NCBI GenBank assembly: GCA_001462345.1
Contig: LIUM01000021.1
Location: 1-37,364 of the forward strand
Length of the DNA: 37,364 nt
Reading direction: 5' to 3'
Source: Fibrobacteria bacterium AD312
Lineage (GTDB): Bacteria; Fibrobacterota; Fibrobacteria; Fibrobacterales; Fibrobacteraceae
The translations under genes were made by a program, and so were the position numbers. The notes below the pieces were generated by a model that ran no database searches, was not told the DNA's origin, and saw only the letters and a program-made list of their open reading frames with translations. Shown piece by piece: positions 22,183 to 36,529 of this stretch; the first letter of the stretch is position 1; each line of letters starts with the position of its first letter.

Positions 22183-22210
22183 AAAAAAGCGTATCCCTTT
22201 CGAGATGCGC
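22183..22210 (-). terminator. Terminator downstream of the rSAM-partner gene
   Basis: On the minus strand GCGCATCTC-GAAA-GGGATACGC forms a stem with one mismatch and one G-T pair, then TTTTTT. It lies 31 bases after the stop of the Lys-rich protein gene. Confidence 0.7.
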
Positions 22211-22240
22211 CTTGCTCTATAAGAAAGAAAATGTTACGAC

Positions 22241-22759
22241 TTACTTTGCCTTCATTTGCTTTTTGACATAAGCTTTTGCATGGGCTTCCACAGCAGTTGC
22301 TTTGATAGCACTTGCCGAGGATATCTTTTTCTTATTGAAATCTTTGATAGCAATATTCACTACATTATTGATGAAATTACTATTTTCTAAAACTGCAATT
22401 TCTTTAAGGATAAGCTGGTTGCTGTTGATAATTTTGGAGTTCTTCGAACGGAATTTTTTAAGGCTGCTGGTGAAAATTGCCTGATATTTATCGATCGCTG
22501 GAATACCCGCAAGCTCATTAGGAAATTTCTTCAATTTAGCAGCCAAGGCATTGAAAGATTTCATTAAATCGTCCAAAACTATACCACCGCAAGTGCCATC
22601 GATAATGATTATCTTTTTTTTAAGGGCTGCGATTTGGCGATTCTTGTAGGTAGTGAGCAGGCTAGTCACCTTTTTACTAATCAGTAGATCATTCTGTGAT
22701 GCTTTTGCAGTAAGGACCTTTGATTTTGTGACTGCCTTGGTCTTTTTTGTTGTAGCCAT
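22241..22759 (-). CDS. Lys-rich 172-aa protein downstream of the radical SAM enzyme (candidate substrate)
   Basis: The start is fixed by a strong AAAAGGAGAACAAA before ATG 22757-22759; the open frame upstream of it belongs to the 3' end of the rSAM gene. The product opens with a histone-tail-like run (MATTKKTKAVTKSKVLTAKA), has a single Cys (Cys57) in IIDGTCGGIVLDD, and ends AHAKAYVKKQMKAK. No signal peptide, membrane segment or known domain is seen. The gene follows the radical SAM/SPASM gene by 17 bp and a terminator closes the pair, so both are made together. I infer that it may be the protein the enzyme modifies. A nucleoid-like basic protein is the alternative. Confidence 0.6.
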   Translation of the reverse strand: MATTKKTKAVTKSKVLTAKASQNDLLISKKVTSLLTTYKNRQIAALKKKIIIIDGTCGGIVLDDLMKSFNALAAKLKKFPNELAGIPAIDKYQAIFTSSLKKFRSKNSKIINSNQLILKEIAVLENSNFINNVVNIAIKDFNKKKISSASAIKATAVEAHAKAYVKKQMKAK

Positions 22760-22776
22760 TTTGTTCTCCTTTTGAG

Positions 22777-23883
22777 TTATGGTTTGTTTTGTGAAAATTT
22801 TGCAAAGGTGTCGTCGCAGATGGCGGCGAGAATTTTTTCGTGGATGCAAACTTCGGGGGATATTCCTTCGATTGTCCCAGTAGTATAAAAGGCGGTGCAG
22901 GCGCACTCATGGGCGATACAGCGATATCTGATGGGGCAGCTCTTGCATTGATGCTTATCTCGATCTAGAAACGTGTAGATGTTTTTTGCCACGGCGTTAG
23001 TAAAAATTCTTGGCTTACTGTTTAAGACATTGCCGAGCTTGTACTTTGCGTTTTCTTTACTAGAAATAAAACGAGTGCAGGGGAAAACATTTCCGTTGGT
23101 GGAAACACTGATCCCGCCTTTTAGAATATGACAGGTGAGCCCCCTTTTGCGAAAACCCGTGCTCTCTATGAAGATCTTGTCGTAGATGGTGCCAAGGTAG
23201 ATATTGTTGCCTTGTTGCATGTTTTTTATCCAGAACAGCGCCATTTTTTGGTATTCTTGGGATAGTTTGTCAAAGTCTTCTGTTGTCCAGTTGCCGTCAA
23301 AGTCGACAGCTGTAGTCATTTGCCTAAAGCCCTGCTTGAAAATCCATTCTACGGATTTTGCGAGTCTCTTGACATGTGCCGGCGTTACCACGGAAAGTAC
23401 TGTAGCGTCTAAATCTACGAGCGTTTGGATGTGTGGAAGAATAAGTCTGAAACTTCCCTTGCCATTTTGCTGCCTTCGTGCAATGTTGTGACTTCGTTCG
23501 GGCCCATCAAGCGAAAGGTATATCTTGAATTTTTCTCGTTTCAAGAAAGCCACAATCTTATCATTTAGTAAAGTACCGTTGGTGTTGATTACAAAATGCA
23601 AATTGAAATATTTTGCCAGTTCACTGCGGCGTTCTTTTACCAAAGCCTTTGCAATCTTTACGCCTTTGCGGATTGAATCAAAACGGAGCAGCGGTTCACC
23701 ACCAAAAAAAGTGATGTTAAAAAAATCTTGGTTCAGCTCAATGGTACGATCCAGTGCAAGGCTAATCGACTTTTCGAGAACCTCATTGGACATGACTAAT
23801 TCGCGTTCGACATGACTAACGTTGTAATAGCAATAAGTGCAACGGAGATTACATTGTTCTGTAAGACTGAGTACTAAATTCAT
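22777..23883 (-). CDS. Radical SAM/SPASM peptide-maturase-like enzyme
   Basis: This 368-residue iron-sulfur enzyme has the radical SAM triad C-N-L-R-C-T-Y-C (Cys11, Cys15, Cys18), F-F-G-G-E-P (59-64), I-N-T-N-G-T and L-S-L-D-G-P. The C-terminal SPASM domain holds Cys251, 269, 313, 316, 322, 327, 329 and 346, enough for two auxiliary clusters. The end C-x-x-C-P-I-R-Y-R-C, then TTGTIEGISPEVC, resembles RiPP maturases rather than sulfatase maturases. A maturase group called FibroRumin is, from memory, known in Fibrobacter and Ruminococcus; membership is untested. Start ATG 23881-23883 is chosen over a longer frame because it begins directly at the SAM domain. Tandem palindromes lie upstream. Confidence 0.88.
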   Translation of the reverse strand: MNLVLSLTEQCNLRCTYCYYNVSHVERELVMSNEVLEKSISLALDRTIELNQDFFNITFFGGEPLLRFDSIRKGVKIAKALVKERRSELAKYFNLHFVINTNGTLLNDKIVAFLKREKFKIYLSLDGPERSHNIARRQQNGKGSFRLILPHIQTLVDLDATVLSVVTPAHVKRLAKSVEWIFKQGFRQMTTAVDFDGNWTTEDFDKLSQEYQKMALFWIKNMQQGNNIYLGTIYDKIFIESTGFRKRGLTCHILKGGISVSTNGNVFPCTRFISSKENAKYKLGNVLNSKPRIFTNAVAKNIYTFLDRDKHQCKSCPIRYRCIAHECACTAFYTTGTIEGISPEVCIHEKILAAICDDTFAKFSQNKP

Positions 23884-29300: not shown

Positions 29301-30011
29301 CTAATTTTCGACATTAACCTTTTCAGGATGTCTTAATTCAAGAATTAATGCATCAACGTTAGTGCAAGGATTCTGCTTGCAGAAAGGTTTCCCAGAGGTA
29401 TTAAATAATGCCTTGAGCTTAGATGCTCTAGTTATTGCATCTTCTTCATTACCTAACGTATTTACTCGGTAATATATTTCTGAATCACCCTTCGATAGAT
29501 CAAAACAAACATTCTGATTGCTTTTAGACAATGCTTTACGAATAGAGGTTTCTAATTTATTGAAAAGGTTTTTTCTTCCCATTTGTTCGGAAATATCCTC
29601 AAAATGTAATAATAGCCATAGTTCAAAACATTCATTTGACCAAGCACAATTCACATTGTGTTCTTTAGCTAATTCTATTGCCGCATCAAAATCCTCAAAA
29701 TCATCTTTATCAAAAACAGCCCAGATACGATCATATTCCTGATGATTATTTTCTATTTGTCGGATTACTTTTTTAACAAGGGCTGTTGTAGATTTACCTT
29801 TGCCTTCGATTGAAATGTCTATATTAAATCGTTTAGTTTTTTCTAGTTCTTCTTTGAGAGCATTAAAATAATTGGGTTCAGTTTTTGTCCCTTCAGTGGC
29901 GATAAAAAAAGTGAGTTTAATATATCTTTCGTTAGAAGACTTGGTTGTCTCTTTTTGCAAAGTTCGACGTTCTTCTTCTACTTTGATTTCTTCAAACGAA
30001 AGTTTATTCAT
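29301..30011 (-). CDS. rloB: RloB/AbiLii-type Toprim-like protein
   Basis: The 236-residue protein matches the RloB family. FFIATEGTKTEPNYFNALK (35-53) carries the acidic Glu40-Gly41 and Glu45. DRIWAVFDKDDFEDF (94-108) carries the Toprim-like Asp101, Asp103 and Asp104. C-A-W-S-N-E-C-F-E-L-W-L-L-L-H-F is the family's signature. RloB pairs with an AAA15 ATPase (RloA), as AbiLi/AbiLii in abortive-infection loci and, more distantly, PARIS and OLD. The likely job is to cleave nucleic acid once released by the ATPase during phage attack. The start lies one base after the RloA stop, so the pair is translationally linked. Confidence 0.85.
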   Translation of the reverse strand: MNKLSFEEIKVEEERRTLQKETTKSSNERYIKLTFFIATEGTKTEPNYFNALKEELEKTKRFNIDISIEGKGKSTTALVKKVIRQIENNHQEYDRIWAVFDKDDFEDFDAAIELAKEHNVNCAWSNECFELWLLLHFEDISEQMGRKNLFNKLETSIRKALSKSNQNVCFDLSKGDSEIYYRVNTLGNEEDAITRASKLKALFNTSGKPFCKQNPCTNVDALILELRHPEKVNVEN

Positions 30012-30012
30012 A

Positions 30013-31311
30013 TCAGCCTTTTAAATAGGGTATGGCGCCGTATTTCCCATTGATATAGTCTTTTTCGTAAACACGGTCATTTCTTATTTTTTCACCGTTT
30101 TGTTCCTTAATTTCACTAAGAGGATAAATATCAGTGGATTCATTATCTCGATTTTTTTCGGCAAACCAAATTTGATCTCTGCGAAGTATTTTATTGCTGA
30201 GTAGGTTTGTATCGTGGGTGGCAAATATCAGTTGTGCATTGTTCGGATTAGTATCTGGTGAATTGAAAATCTCGATAATCTTCTTAGTAAGCAAAGGATG
30301 TAATTTTGCATCTAATTCATCTATAACGAATGTTTCGCCCTTAGATAAGGCTTCTACAATTGGACCAGAGATATTTATAATTTTCTTTGTTCCTTCCGAC
30401 TCCATTTTATCATTGCGAAAGAAAACTTCGGTGACGGTTCCATCACTTTTGCGAAATAAATGCCCCGTTTTAAAAATAGGAATATTTGTTTCGTTCCATT
30501 TAGGGGGAAGAAGCTTATCCCAAAAATTCGGAATTTCTTGCTCAATTGTTTCCTTCATTTCAGGATTTATTCCTGAAAAAGCATAATCTTTGACGTCCGT
30601 TTCTGCTTTTTGAATATCTGTGAACCCTAAGTCCATGCTTTTAATAAAATCTTTTGCTTTTAAGGAATTTTCATTATTTTCAAATAGATAATTACAGGAA
30701 TATAATTTAAAATCTGAATCGGTTATACCTGAAAAACATTTCAGTTTTTCAAACCAATTCATGACGGCCAAAGAAATCTTTCCGTTTAATTGTGCCACTA
30801 AAGACAAAAATAAGCGATTGTCTGCAGTAGAACTTTCTTTGTCAACCCCTTCAGGGAAATCTTTGGATACAACACCTATCCCGTTGTCGTTTCTTATAAA
30901 AAGTAATTTTTCGCGTTCATTTTTTATGGTGTATAGCCATTCAGCATTGATTTTATCTTTGCTATACTCAAAACCATATTTGTATGTATTGCCTTCTGAT
31001 AAAAAGACAACTTCAAAAAAGGTTGGTTTATGCTTATTTTGCTCGTCTAACAAAAAAGGATCAGTTATTAATATTTCCGTAGGATTTGTTTTTACTGAAA
31101 AGAGCAGAATTTTTTTCATCATTTGCAAGGCCGAAAGCAAATTGCTTTTACCGCTCGAGTTTGCTCCATAAATTGCAACTACTGGCAAAAACTTGATACC
31201 ATTACCTTCTCGAATGAACTCTTTGTGTTCTTGAAAGGAAGTTGCATTCAGAGAAAATGTTTTATTCTCTTTGAAAGATCGGTAATTACCAACAGTGAAA
31301 TTTATTAACAT
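30013..31311 (-). CDS. rloA: RloA/AbiLi-type AAA15 ATPase
   Basis: The 432-residue ABC-type ATPase has Walker A I-Y-G-A-N-S-S-G-K-S-N (about 47-57), Walker B T-F-V-I-D-E-L-D-A-K-L-H-P (Asp331, Glu332) and an H-loop L-I-F-A-T-H-D-T-N-L-L (about 361-371). The N-terminus LINFTVGNYRSFKENKTFSL is typical of AAA15/AAA21 proteins of the Rlo/AbiL group. It likely senses infection through ATP-driven conformational change and controls RloB. Order and spacing (rloA then rloB, one base apart) match the known pair. CGGAG precedes the ATG. Confidence 0.87.
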   Translation of the reverse strand: MLINFTVGNYRSFKENKTFSLNATSFQEHKEFIREGNGIKFLPVVAIYGANSSGKSNLLSALQMMKKILLFSVKTNPTEILITDPFLLDEQNKHKPTFFEVVFLSEGNTYKYGFEYSKDKINAEWLYTIKNEREKLLFIRNDNGIGVVSKDFPEGVDKESSTADNRLFLSLVAQLNGKISLAVMNWFEKLKCFSGITDSDFKLYSCNYLFENNENSLKAKDFIKSMDLGFTDIQKAETDVKDYAFSGINPEMKETIEQEIPNFWDKLLPPKWNETNIPIFKTGHLFRKSDGTVTEVFFRNDKMESEGTKKIINISGPIVEALSKGETFVIDELDAKLHPLLTKKIIEIFNSPDTNPNNAQLIFATHDTNLLSNKILRRDQIWFAEKNRDNESTDIYPLSEIKEQNGEKIRNDRVYEKDYINGKYGAIPYLKG

Positions 31312-32797: not shown

Positions 32798-35700
32798 TTA
32801 ATTCTCATGGGTCAATTCCTCAGCAATTAATTCTGCTTGCTTGAGAACGGTTTCCGTGGCCAGCATTTGCATATCTGGTGGGTAGCCGTATTGCCGTAGA
32901 ATACGCTTTACGATCACTTTTAGCTTGGCTTTTACACTTTCCTTAATAGTCCAGTCTATTGAAGCGTTTTCTTTTACCTTTTCGTATAAAACTACGGCAA
33001 GCTCGCGCAATTTATCTTTTTCCATGACTTGTTTTGCGCTGTCATTATTGGCGATGGCTGTATAGAACGCATATTCATAATCAGATAAGCCCATTTCTTT
33101 TGGTTCTTTATCCATTTCATGAATTTCTTTAGAAAGATTAATGAGTTCTTCAATGACTTCTGCGGCTGTCAATATTTTGTTGTGATACTTATGAATTGAA
33201 GATTCAAGCATTTCAATCAATTTGTGGCTTTGAATTAGATTTTTCTTTGTTCTGGCCTTTATTTCATCATTCAATATTTTCTTAAGTACTTCTAGAGCCA
33301 AATTTTTGTGTTCCATGTTTTTGACTTCAACTAAAAAGTCTTCAGATAGAACAGAAATATCTGGCTTCTTGATTCCAGCGGCATCATAGATGTCAATTAC
33401 TTGTTCGGAGACCAAAGCCTGATCAATTACTTGGCGAATCGCTGTTTCTATTTCTTCATTGGATTTCCCTGAGTGAGTACTTTCGCCAAATTTTATTAAG
33501 CGAGATTTGACCGCTTGGAAAAAGGCCACTTCATCTTTTGCATCCATGGCTTGATCGTGTGGGATTGCTATGGAAAACGCTTGAGAAAGAGCTGAGACCT
33601 CGTCAATAAAACGTTTTTTGCCTTTTTCTAAAGATAAAATGTGTTCTTCAGCGGCTAATATCAAAGACAGTTTTTTGCTTGTGTCGGCGGTAAAGTACGA
33701 TTCATAAGGGAACCCGTGGAACATTTGCGAAACTACTTCTAGTTTTTCAAGCATTAATTGTACGGCTTGTTCCTGAGTATTGGCTGGGTCTCCTTTGCCA
33801 CCAGCATCTGAATAAAAAGACAAAGCCTTTTTTAAGTCAGAGGCAATGCCTAAATAATCGACAATCAAGCCACCAGTTTTGTCTTTGTAAACTCGGTTGA
33901 CTCTTGCAATGGCCTGCATCAGGTTATGCCCTTTCATGGGTTTATCAATATAGAGCGTGTGCATCGAAGGAGCATCAAATCCAGTGAGCCACATATCACG
34001 AACAATGACTAATTTGAGTTCATCATCGGGGGCTTTCATGCGTTCAGCAAGGGCTCGCCTTTGCTCTTTTGAGGTGTGGTGTTTCGAAATTTCAGGGCCA
34101 TCGGCAGAGGCAGAGGTCATCACGACTTTGATTACCCCTTTTTTGAGGTCATCGTTATGCCATTCAGGGCGCAAAGCGATAATTTCACTATACAGCTCTG
34201 CTGCAATGCGGCGACTCATCGTCACAATCATGCCTTTCCCATCTATGACTGATTGTCGCAATTCAAAATGAGTAATAATGTCTTTCGCTACTTGTTTGAT
34301 TCTGTTTTTACTACCAATAAGAGCTTCTAATTGAGTCCATTTCGCTTTTATTTTTTCAAAACCCTCATCCCCATCCCTTCTCCCAAGGGAAGAAGGGAGT
34401 ATATTCTCCTCTCCCTCTGGGAGAGGCTGGGTGAGGGTATCATCAAATGATGATATGAGTTTTTTGCCTTCTTCACTGAGTGATATTTTTGCAAGCCGGC
34501 TTTCATAATAAATACGAACAGTCGCACCATCTTCTACTGCTTGGGCAATATCATACACATCGACATAGTTTCCAAACACAGCAGGGGTATTCACATCGGT
34601 ATTTTCAATAGGCGTACCTGTAAAACCCAGATAAGTCGCATTAGGCAAAGCATCGCGCATGTATTTGGCAAAACCATACACTACTTTTTTACCAATCACG
34701 TTGCCGTCTTTGTCTTTGTCGTCGATCGTTTTGGCCTTAAAACCATATTGGGTACGATGGGCTTCATCAGCAATGACAATGATATTGGTTCTATCACTCA
34801 GCTTTTCGTAGACGTTGCCTTCTTCTGGCTGGAATTTTTGGATGGTGGTAAAAACCACGCCACCCGAGGCGACTTTGAGAAGTTCTTTGAGCTGGTCGCG
34901 ATTTTCGGCCTGAACAGGTTCTTGACGCAAGAGTTGTTTAGAGGCAGCGAAGGTATCAAAAAGTTGATCGTCTAAGTCATTGCGGTCTGTAATGACAAGG
35001 ATCGTGGGGTTATCCATGGCAAGGACAATTTTCCCTGTATAGAACACCATCGAAAGCGATTTGCCAGAACCTTGCGTATGCCAAATCACACCGCCTTTTT
35101 TATCACCTATCGGTTGCTTTTTAACACTTGGCAAACCATAACTTTCAGGGCTTTCACAAACCCGTAAGGCGTTCCCTACGGGATCTTTTTTCACATAACC
35201 CGATGCCCGCAAGGTCGATTCTACCGCTCGGTTTACGGCATAATACTGATGATACGCGGCCAGTTTCTTGATGGTAGTCACTGTCGTGATACCACCCTCT
35301 CTTCCGTCTCTCCCAGAGGGAGAGAGACTATTTTCAATTTTATTTAATACATTTTCGGGCTTATTGAGTAGTTCTTCATTGCAGAATCTTAATACTTTAT
35401 TTCCCAGACTAGTCAGATATTTATCTCTTTTTTTATCTTTTTTCTGCTGTTCCGGCAACTCATGCACAGAACCGTCAAATTCAATTACAACTTTCTCTGA
35501 ATTACAGAAAAAATCCACAATATAATGCCCAATCTGATGCTGCCTTCTGAATTTTAACCCAAGAAATTGTTTGTTTCTTACGAGGGCCCAGAAAATTTCC
35601 TCAGCTTTTGTCTGATTTTTTCTTAGTTCCCTGATCTGTTCTATCATTCCAGCATAATTCATACCCGCCCGGTAATGTCCTCCCTCCCGCCGGGAGGGAT

Positions 35701-36529
35701 TGAGGGAGGGGGTCAACTTTGTTGACCTTTCAAACACAATAAAATGGCGCACCAAGTCTAGCAAAGTGGCTTTATTTAACATTCCCTGAATCAAGATTTC
35801 CATTTGGTTTACCAAATGAGAGGCCTCGATTTTACCATTGACTGTTTTCCAGGCCATAAAACGGCTCAACCCGGCGGAAAGCGTTCCTGCCTTTGCCTCT
35901 AATCCATCGGAAATAATTAGAAACGCATTATAAGGGAATAAAGAAGGAATCGCTTGTTTATAAGTTTGCAGTTGATTAAATGCAGAATGAATAGTCGCGT
36001 TTTCATCAGCAGGGTTTTTCAACTCAATCACCACTAAGGGTAAGCCATTCACAAATAGAATAATATCAGGGCGTTTATTGACGTGATTTTCGATGATGGT
36101 AAATTGATTGACGACATAAAAATCGTTGTTTTCTGGATTGTGAAAATCTACCAGCCAAACGAGATCCCCTCGGCTTTGCCCGTCTTTTTGATAATTGACT
36201 TTGACCCCTTCTGTAAGCAGACGATGAAACGCCTCGTTATTGGCAATGAGATCAGGGGAGCTTAAACGTTCAATTTGCTTGATGGCATCTTCTCTAGCAT
36301 CTTCAGAAACAGTGGGATTAATTCGAGCCACAGCCGATTTTAGGCGATCGAGTAAGAGAACGTCTTCGAAGCTTCGTCTTGCAGAGCCCCTCACCCCCGC
36401 CTCTCCCAAAGGGAGAGGGGTTTCAGTGTCGGGAGCTATATCAGGGCCGTAAATGTATTGATAACCCTGATTTTCTAGTAGCTCAATCGCTAAAGCTTCG
36501 ATGTCGAATTCGGTGATTTTACTGCTCAT
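32798..36529 (-). CDS. hsdR: Type I restriction enzyme R subunit with inserted DUF559 nuclease domain
   Basis: HsdR translocates and cuts unmodified DNA as part of an HsdR2M2S complex. The N-terminal nuclease has the PD-ExK site R-P-D-I-I-L-F, then VVIELKNP (153-173). The SF2 motor has H-T-Q-G-S-G-K-S (Walker A, Lys490), I-V-I-A-D-E-A-H-R-T-Q (DEAH box), Y-L-G-F-T-G-T-P and Q-A-I-A-R-V-N-R. At 1243 residues it is longer than usual (about 1000-1050) because of three in-frame insertions: about residues 36-51, 272-416 and a third at 34362-34437. The second holds a complete DUF559 domain. The start overlaps the rhuM stop by 11 bp. Without a visible intact hsdM or hsdS here, activity depends on genes outside the window. 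Confidence 0.93.
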   Translation of the reverse strand: MSSKITEFDIEALAIELLENQGYQYIYGPDIAPDTETPLPLGEAGVRGSARRSFEDVLLLDRLKSAVARINPTVSEDAREDAIKQIERLSSPDLIANNEAFHRLLTEGVKVNYQKDGQSRGDLVWLVDFHNPENNDFYVVNQFTIIENHVNKRPDIILFVNGLPLVVIELKNPADENATIHSAFNQLQTYKQAIPSLFPYNAFLIISDGLEAKAGTLSAGLSRFMAWKTVNGKIEASHLVNQMEILIQGMLNKATLLDLVRHFIVFERSTKLTPSLNPSRREGGHYRAGMNYAGMIEQIRELRKNQTKAEEIFWALVRNKQFLGLKFRRQHQIGHYIVDFFCNSEKVVIEFDGSVHELPEQQKKDKKRDKYLTSLGNKVLRFCNEELLNKPENVLNKIENSLSPSGRDGREGGITTVTTIKKLAAYHQYYAVNRAVESTLRASGYVKKDPVGNALRVCESPESYGLPSVKKQPIGDKKGGVIWHTQGSGKSLSMVFYTGKIVLAMDNPTILVITDRNDLDDQLFDTFAASKQLLRQEPVQAENRDQLKELLKVASGGVVFTTIQKFQPEEGNVYEKLSDRTNIIVIADEAHRTQYGFKAKTIDDKDKDGNVIGKKVVYGFAKYMRDALPNATYLGFTGTPIENTDVNTPAVFGNYVDVYDIAQAVEDGATVRIYYESRLAKISLSEEGKKLISSFDDTLTQPLPEGEENILPSSLGRRDGDEGFEKIKAKWTQLEALIGSKNRIKQVAKDIITHFELRQSVIDGKGMIVTMSRRIAAELYSEIIALRPEWHNDDLKKGVIKVVMTSASADGPEISKHHTSKEQRRALAERMKAPDDELKLVIVRDMWLTGFDAPSMHTLYIDKPMKGHNLMQAIARVNRVYKDKTGGLIVDYLGIASDLKKALSFYSDAGGKGDPANTQEQAVQLMLEKLEVVSQMFHGFPYESYFTADTSKKLSLILAAEEHILSLEKGKKRFIDEVSALSQAFSIAIPHDQAMDAKDEVAFFQAVKSRLIKFGESTHSGKSNEEIETAIRQVIDQALVSEQVIDIYDAAGIKKPDISVLSEDFLVEVKNMEHKNLALEVLKKILNDEIKARTKKNLIQSHKLIEMLESSIHKYHNKILTAAEVIEELINLSKEIHEMDKEPKEMGLSDYEYAFYTAIANNDSAKQVMEKDKLRELAVVLYEKVKENASIDWTIKESVKAKLKVIVKRILRQYGYPPDMQMLATETVLKQAELIAEELTHEN
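34362..34437. repeat. Palindromic GC-rich element 3 inside hsdR
   Basis: This 76-bp segment has ends CCCTCATCCCC and GGGTGAGGG in inverted order, with internal CTTCTCCC/GGGAAGAAG and CTCTCCCTC/GGGAGAG hairpins. It encodes a loop (LTQPLPEGEENILPSSLGRR) between helicase segments. Orthologous HsdR proteins, as I know the family, lack such a Pro/Gly/Glu loop here. Confidence 0.75.
35282..35727 (-). mobile_element. DUF559 nuclease cassette flanked by palindromes, inserted in hsdR
   Basis: Residues about 272-416 of HsdR are an insertion between the nuclease domain (ends F-I-V-F-E) and the helicase (restarts T-T-I-K-K-L-A-A-Y-H-Q). Its two ends are GC-rich palindromes: 35294-35328 (ACCCTCTCTTCC...CTCTCCCAGAGGGAGAG) and 35679-35713 (CCTCCCTCCCGCCGGGAGGGAT...GAGGGAGGGGG). 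Next to the latter is a perfect GGTCAAC-TTT-GTTGACC (35711-35727). Between them a full DUF559 (Vsr-like, PD-(D/E)xK) domain is encoded (about 291-395), with K-F-R-R-Q-H-Q-I-G-H-Y-I-V-D-F-F (Asp339) and V-V-I-E-F-D-G-S-V-H (Glu350, Asp352). An internal ATG (GMNYAGM) after a purine-rich GGGAGGGAGG could also start the domain separately. Confidence 0.75.
36377..36425. repeat. Palindromic GC-rich element 1 inside hsdR
   Basis: About 48 bp with CCCCTCACCCCCGCCTCTCCC-type ends and a CTCTCCC-AAA-GGGAGAG hairpin encode TETPLPLGEAGVRGSAR in a loop where HsdR relatives run from Y-G-P-D-I-A-P-D directly to R-R-S-F-E-D-V. It is the same family as the elements at 34362 and 35282. Confidence 0.75.

Follow-up and report, generated by a model that had tools for sequence, protein, structure and literature searches.

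A radical SAM/SPASM enzyme and its lysine-rich partner as a probable cysteine-independent protein-modification pair in Fibrobacteraceae, with lipoprotein-type relatives

We describe a gene pair that probably forms a two-gene protein-modification unit, in which a radical SAM (rSAM)/SPASM enzyme would act, independently of cysteine, on Gly-centred motifs of the basic protein encoded directly after it, within a family that appears to have switched from lipoprotein substrates. The pair lies in the window, by which we mean the whole stretch of 37,364 nucleotides analysed (contig C21 of a 2.83 Mb genome, 99.3% complete). We regard the enzyme-substrate family as real and, within the rSAM-modified ribosomal products, as apparently undescribed and probably new. 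No NCBIfam model reaches its cut-off with the enzyme, and a search of the mostly open-access literature, by titles and the starts of abstracts, returned no description of this enzyme-partner family. What is unusual here is the type of substrate proposed, together with the switch from a surface lipoprotein to a cytosolic basic protein.

The gene for the enzyme (368 aa; 22777..23883, minus strand) is followed after 17 bp by that for the Lys-rich partner, the proposed substrate (172 aa; 22241..22759, minus strand), and both ORFs were recovered where the initial annotation had placed them. That annotation had read the genes as a possible modification pair with a long, atypical substrate, ending in one terminator and with a strong ribosome site for the partner. 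The layout is borne out by a Shine-Dalgarno sequence, AAGGAG (22766..22771, minus strand), 6 nt 5′ of the partner ATG, and by a terminator-like hairpin with a U run 3′ of the partner stop (22186..22213, minus strand; -12.5 kcal/mol, z -2.2, equalled in 6/200 shuffles), which was found by folding and was not detected by a simple terminator scan. As had also been noted, the window ORF list holds no peptidase or transporter beside the pair. Its neighbours, which include an upstream gene for an RF-1-domain protein and, downstream on the opposite strand, a lipoprotein-like gene, are not obvious partners. Elsewhere in the window, a type I restriction subunit HsdR (32798-36529, minus strand) carries a DUF559 nuclease-like domain (residues 298-402, 7e-36) between its N-terminal domain and the SWI2/SNF2 ATPase; this domain is flanked in frame by the repeat-like strings LPLGEAGVRG, SLNPSRREGG and SPSGRDGREGG and looks like an in-frame insertion of a repeated element. 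An AAA_21 ATPase (30013-31311) adjoins RloB (29301-30011) on the minus strand (29301-31311 in all), a possible RloAB-like defence pair.

The enzyme matches PF04055 (Radical_SAM) at 58.5 bits, against a Pfam cut-off of 29.5, and PF13186 (SPASM) at 28.7, against 21.5. The CX3CX2C triad for the SAM-binding 4Fe-4S cluster (residues 11/15/18; 23830..23853, minus strand) is present in 59/59 aligned relatives. Eight cysteines of the SPASM region (251, 269, 313, 316, 322, 327, 329 and 346; residues 251-346, 22846..23133, minus strand) are each kept in 58 or 59 of the same 59, so that the triad and eight SPASM-region cysteines first reported for this enzyme stand. C356 is a ninth, at least 90% conserved among 22 Fibrobacteraceae sequences. 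The spacing in this region is CX2CX5CX4CXC in the window enzyme and CX2CX5CX3CXC in more distant relatives. AlphaFold2, given 59 sequences, models the enzyme with confidence (pLDDT 93.1, pTM 0.91), and the PDB folds closest to this model are CteB (Z 37.2), ChlB (33.0), an anaerobic sulfatase maturase (32.5) and TigE (27.2). By Pfam and the model alike, the rSAM and SPASM parts take up the whole length of the enzyme and leave no room for a separate recognition domain.

Searching other genomes for the gene pair was a check proposed beforehand, and it was run. Homologues at E <= 1e-60 occur in 64 of 111 Fibrobacteraceae genomes; at E <= 1e-40 they occur in 54 of 150 genomes drawn from the phylum, every one of them in Fibrobacteraceae. 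When named genomes were scanned with an alignment, 80 loci emerged, with Brevinematales at 36-37% identity and, at about 30%, Saprospiraceae, Planctomycetota and others, while viral contigs gave relatives at 24-31% identity only and a single-protein scan of genome contigs confirmed no relative. The Fibrobacteraceae enzyme ORFs, 192 in number, were reduced to 114 genes, uniqueness being judged on the first 330 residues, so that near copies are still in the set. Matches to rSAM proteins below 200 bits were left out before counting (larger rSAM proteins near L060, L067 and L123, and a 69-aa fragment of the split gene L108), and the split gene L112 was counted once. A partner gene is present beside all 114 tabulated enzyme genes, a pairing that far exceeds chance and the linkage of enzyme to candidate precursor by which a RiPP pair is recognised. 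In 79 cases (type A) it is the gene of a Ser-rich, lipoprotein-like precursor upstream of the enzyme, and most of these genes overlap the enzyme gene or lie no more than 85 nt from it; the precursor begins M[KDNE]I[EKRQST] in 78/79, followed by a hydrophobic stretch that ends in Cys in the manner of a lipoprotein signal. In the other 35 (type B), the window pair included, the partner is a basic protein of 69-183 aa, starting MA or MP in 26/35, without a signal-like segment and always encoded 11-41 nt downstream of the enzyme; 24 of these loci have flanks of at least 2 kb on both sides. The type B label was lenient, accepting any ORF of at least 45 aa that starts within about 75 nt, and such an ORF also occurs in 15/79 type A rows; the case for type B therefore rests also on common composition and motif. 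The labels of L228 and L168 were corrected by hand.

The window genome holds one system of each type, the type A system lying on contig C46 (L027/L224), where two tandem lipoprotein-like precursors with repeats such as SGDPVMPE, GGEIQMPE and AGIVEIPE precede the rSAM gene; a precursor gene of L027 lies at 952-1488 of that locus. Three loci (L162, L169, L213) carry two type B pairs each, either arranged in tandem or separated by about 6 kb, which suggests local duplication. In three others (L060, L067, L123) a larger second rSAM protein (~690 aa) is encoded on the opposite strand upstream of the type B pair, and at L067 and L123 its gene has a 130-aa gene of its own 14 nt downstream.

In a quick IQ-TREE analysis of 113 of the 114 enzymes (the split gene being excluded) and two Brevinematales outgroup sequences, type B forms a single clade (SH-aLRT 99) nested within type A, and the A, B and outgroup labels require 2 changes on the tree against 31.5 in shuffles. 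The outgroup has its partner upstream, like type A. Given this nesting and the position of the outgroup partner, the simplest history is a single switch from an upstream lipoprotein to a downstream basic protein. The remaining type B rows belong to genus g2 or to records titled Fibrobacter and the window genome to another genus, which suggests horizontal transfer.

The partner accords with its first description as long and basic with one cysteine: it has 172 residues, 19% Lys, a net charge of +24 and C57 as its only Cys. It matches no family in Pfam (E up to 10) or NCBIfam, and 10 other partners gave only weak, unrelated Pfam matches, with E above 0.01. Kinship with phasins or histone H1, an idea that came from composition alone, found no support in Pfam. 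A partner search among 60 relatives returned three weak matches besides self, one being the true partner adjoining the G033 enzyme and two containing stops. The window enzyme is 78% identical to its nearest relative, from genome G094, and their partners are 35% identical; faster divergence of the partner than of the enzyme is a pattern often seen in substrates.

Partners of type B align weakly owing to their Lys-rich composition, and a motif was sought de novo by EM in 22 representatives at most 40% identical. This gave x-G-[I/D/L]-[P/I/V]-[V/A/F], with a log-likelihood ratio (LLR) of 146; the highest value among 30 shuffles, each given as many restarts, was 97. Run over 33 type A precursors, none of which had gone into its training, the matrix scored above 4 at 16 sites, where 200 shuffles gave 1.4 +/- 1.1 and at most 4. 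The short form G[ID][PIV] occurs 18 times in type B (shuffle mean 3.0, maximum 11) and 35 times in type A (mean 7.4, maximum 17), an enrichment of about five to six times in both types. Across 10 orthologue pairs identity is 78% in the motif and 58% elsewhere (random windows, p 0.0018), but in 2 of the 10 the motif does not exceed most other windows in conservation. It is a short motif and a degenerate one; a broad regular expression for it is absent from 2/22 type B representatives, and in one large type A clade many precursors get low scores from the type B matrix. That clade accounts for the C-terminal signature SMVTTFE..DI in 40/79 type A precursors, and in these the signature might be what the enzyme really targets. 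The pattern [AST]G[DIVEL][IVPM] is found in 58/79 type A precursors, either element in 74/79 and neither in 5. Together with the two type B representatives that lack the motif, this clade indicates that the modification site may differ between branches.

The window partner carries two copies of the motif. Copy 2, NELAGIPAID (LAGIPA for short; residues 81-90; 22490..22519, minus strand), is the best PSSM site, and the overlapping string FPNExAGIP is kept in the orthologue. Copy 1, DGTCGGIVLD (TCGGIV for short; residues 54-63; 22571..22600, minus strand), is a weaker PSSM site that aligns with the motif of seven other partners (e.g. GLIHEKW, GDLVVDD and GGISAEK). Both copies fall in loops between helices in a partner model of low confidence (pLDDT 54.9, pTM 0.27), which was used solely for possible loop positions. 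By eye, similar sites occur among the wider relatives, such as PLLGEPVAMP and KDGDIAMFPE in Brevinematales and FGTGLP in Saprospiraceae, and these motif-like sites of distant relatives adjoin a hydrophobic N-terminal segment. Two deltaproteobacterial MAGs show several LAGDIAQEE-like repeats; their precursors (L132, 3395-3988; L133, 3434-3994) lie upstream of the rSAM gene and have several repeats of the [LM][AM]G[DVIM] type with Asp/Thr-rich linkers between them. In Saprospiraceae and their kin (L113, L114, L117, L121, L122, L124, L125, L130) a distant rSAM gene is followed by one for a protein of 443-549 aa that has a hydrophobic segment at its N terminus and, ahead of a conserved stretch, a motif of the FGTGxP type; NCBIfam gave no match to the downstream proteins of L114 and L117.

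Since the motif is common to type A and type B partners and conserved between orthologues, we read the window partner as the probable substrate of the enzyme. It might instead be a helper, which would either carry or recognise a substrate that is not linked to the pair or, as a basic protein binding nucleic acid, regulate the operon. The partner is long and basic, with no recognisable core peptide, and the enzyme brings no recognition domain beyond its rSAM and SPASM parts, both of which would suit a helper. However, the sole conserved motif of the partner is shared with the exported, lipoprotein-type partners of sister enzymes, many of which contain it several times, and the partner diverges fast; we therefore consider a helper unlikely.

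The initial annotation had pointed to Cys57-Gly-Gly as a modification site, and this found no support: the position is Ala in the closest orthologue (G094), 24/35 type B partners have no Cys at all, and the conserved element is Gly-centred and occurs twice in this protein. These observations make Cys chemistry improbable, and they bear directly on a ranthipeptide or sactipeptide reading, in which the enzyme would act like PapB or CteB and link Cys57 with an Asp close by. The top NCBIfam model for the enzyme is indeed the PapB ranthipeptide maturase, at 210 bits, and its top PDB match is CteB (28% identity), but the curated PapB cut-off of 340 is not reached and the cysteine that would supply the thioether is mostly missing. 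Such a thioether product is thus quite improbable. That the two genes are co-transcribed and otherwise unrelated is exceedingly improbable, for although either can be explained by itself and no other conserved neighbour joins them, every one of the 114 relatives is paired and the 35 type B partners share both position and composition; chance neighbourhood is in practice ruled out by this conserved linkage.

On our preferred reading of the partner as a Cys-independent substrate, the enzyme would bind the basic partner through its basic N-terminal part and alter residues in or beside TCGGIV and LAGIPA; we infer both the modification and its site. A reaction independent of Cys would differ from the thioether formation of the closest relatives that have been characterised, and could instead form a C-C, C-N or C-O bond, or bring about epimerisation or dehydrogenation, at the residue that follows Gly, which is aliphatic or acidic. 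The family would have begun with exported Ser-rich lipoproteins encoded before the enzyme, each displaying several modified motifs outside the membrane, and one branch would have moved to a Lys-rich protein of the cytosol whose gene follows that of the enzyme. With no signal peptide, the type B product should stay in the cytosol, in line with the intracellular role first suggested. A bolder version, which we hold to be rather doubtful, is that the modified, histone-tail-like protein resides in the cytosol and works at full length instead of being released as a peptide, with DNA or some other polyanion as one conceivable target, and that a re-targeted, ancestrally lipoprotein-modifying enzyme modifies G-[I/D]-[P/I/V] in a new way that needs no Cys. 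Taken together, these data uphold the idea of a dedicated pair with a long, atypical substrate, and add the relation to lipoprotein-type systems that the initial annotation had missed. The family is compact and widespread in Fibrobacteraceae, and its defined candidate motif lacks Cys, so that the reaction is likely unlike those of PapB and CteB. Moreover, a single switch on one enzyme scaffold would give a handle on substrate choice by rSAM enzymes.

Lastly, we compared the pair with known systems. FibroRumin (TIGR04136) is an rSAM peptide maturase family whose name points to Fibrobacter and Ruminococcus; with 69.4 bits against a cut-off of 400, the window enzyme does not belong to it. The PapB maturases (NF047865) are the best curated match of both the enzyme and its wider relatives (199-230 bits) and share the small layout. 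However, the score of the enzyme and the lack of a conserved Cys donor in substrates that are long and basic or lipoproteins place the pair outside that family. CteB (SCIFF maturase, PDB 5wgg) is the closest solved fold, with an rmsd of 2.6 over 338 residues and a SPASM domain with auxiliary clusters; in contrast to our enzyme, it has about 90 residues before its matched part (chain range 94-450) and forms thioether bonds on Cys, a requirement that is unlikely here. In TvgA/TvgB, one rSAM enzyme converts Val to cyclopropylglycine in a repeated TVGG motif (PMC9062424). There, too, a Cys-free, Gly-containing motif is repeated along the precursor, as G-[DIVE]-[PIV] is in type A. In contrast, the motif here differs, the window locus has no oxidase, peptidase or transporter genes, and type B carries one or two copies within a larger basic protein. 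TvgA/TvgB offers a precedent, by analogy and not by kinship, for the modification of a Cys-free motif by an rSAM enzyme.
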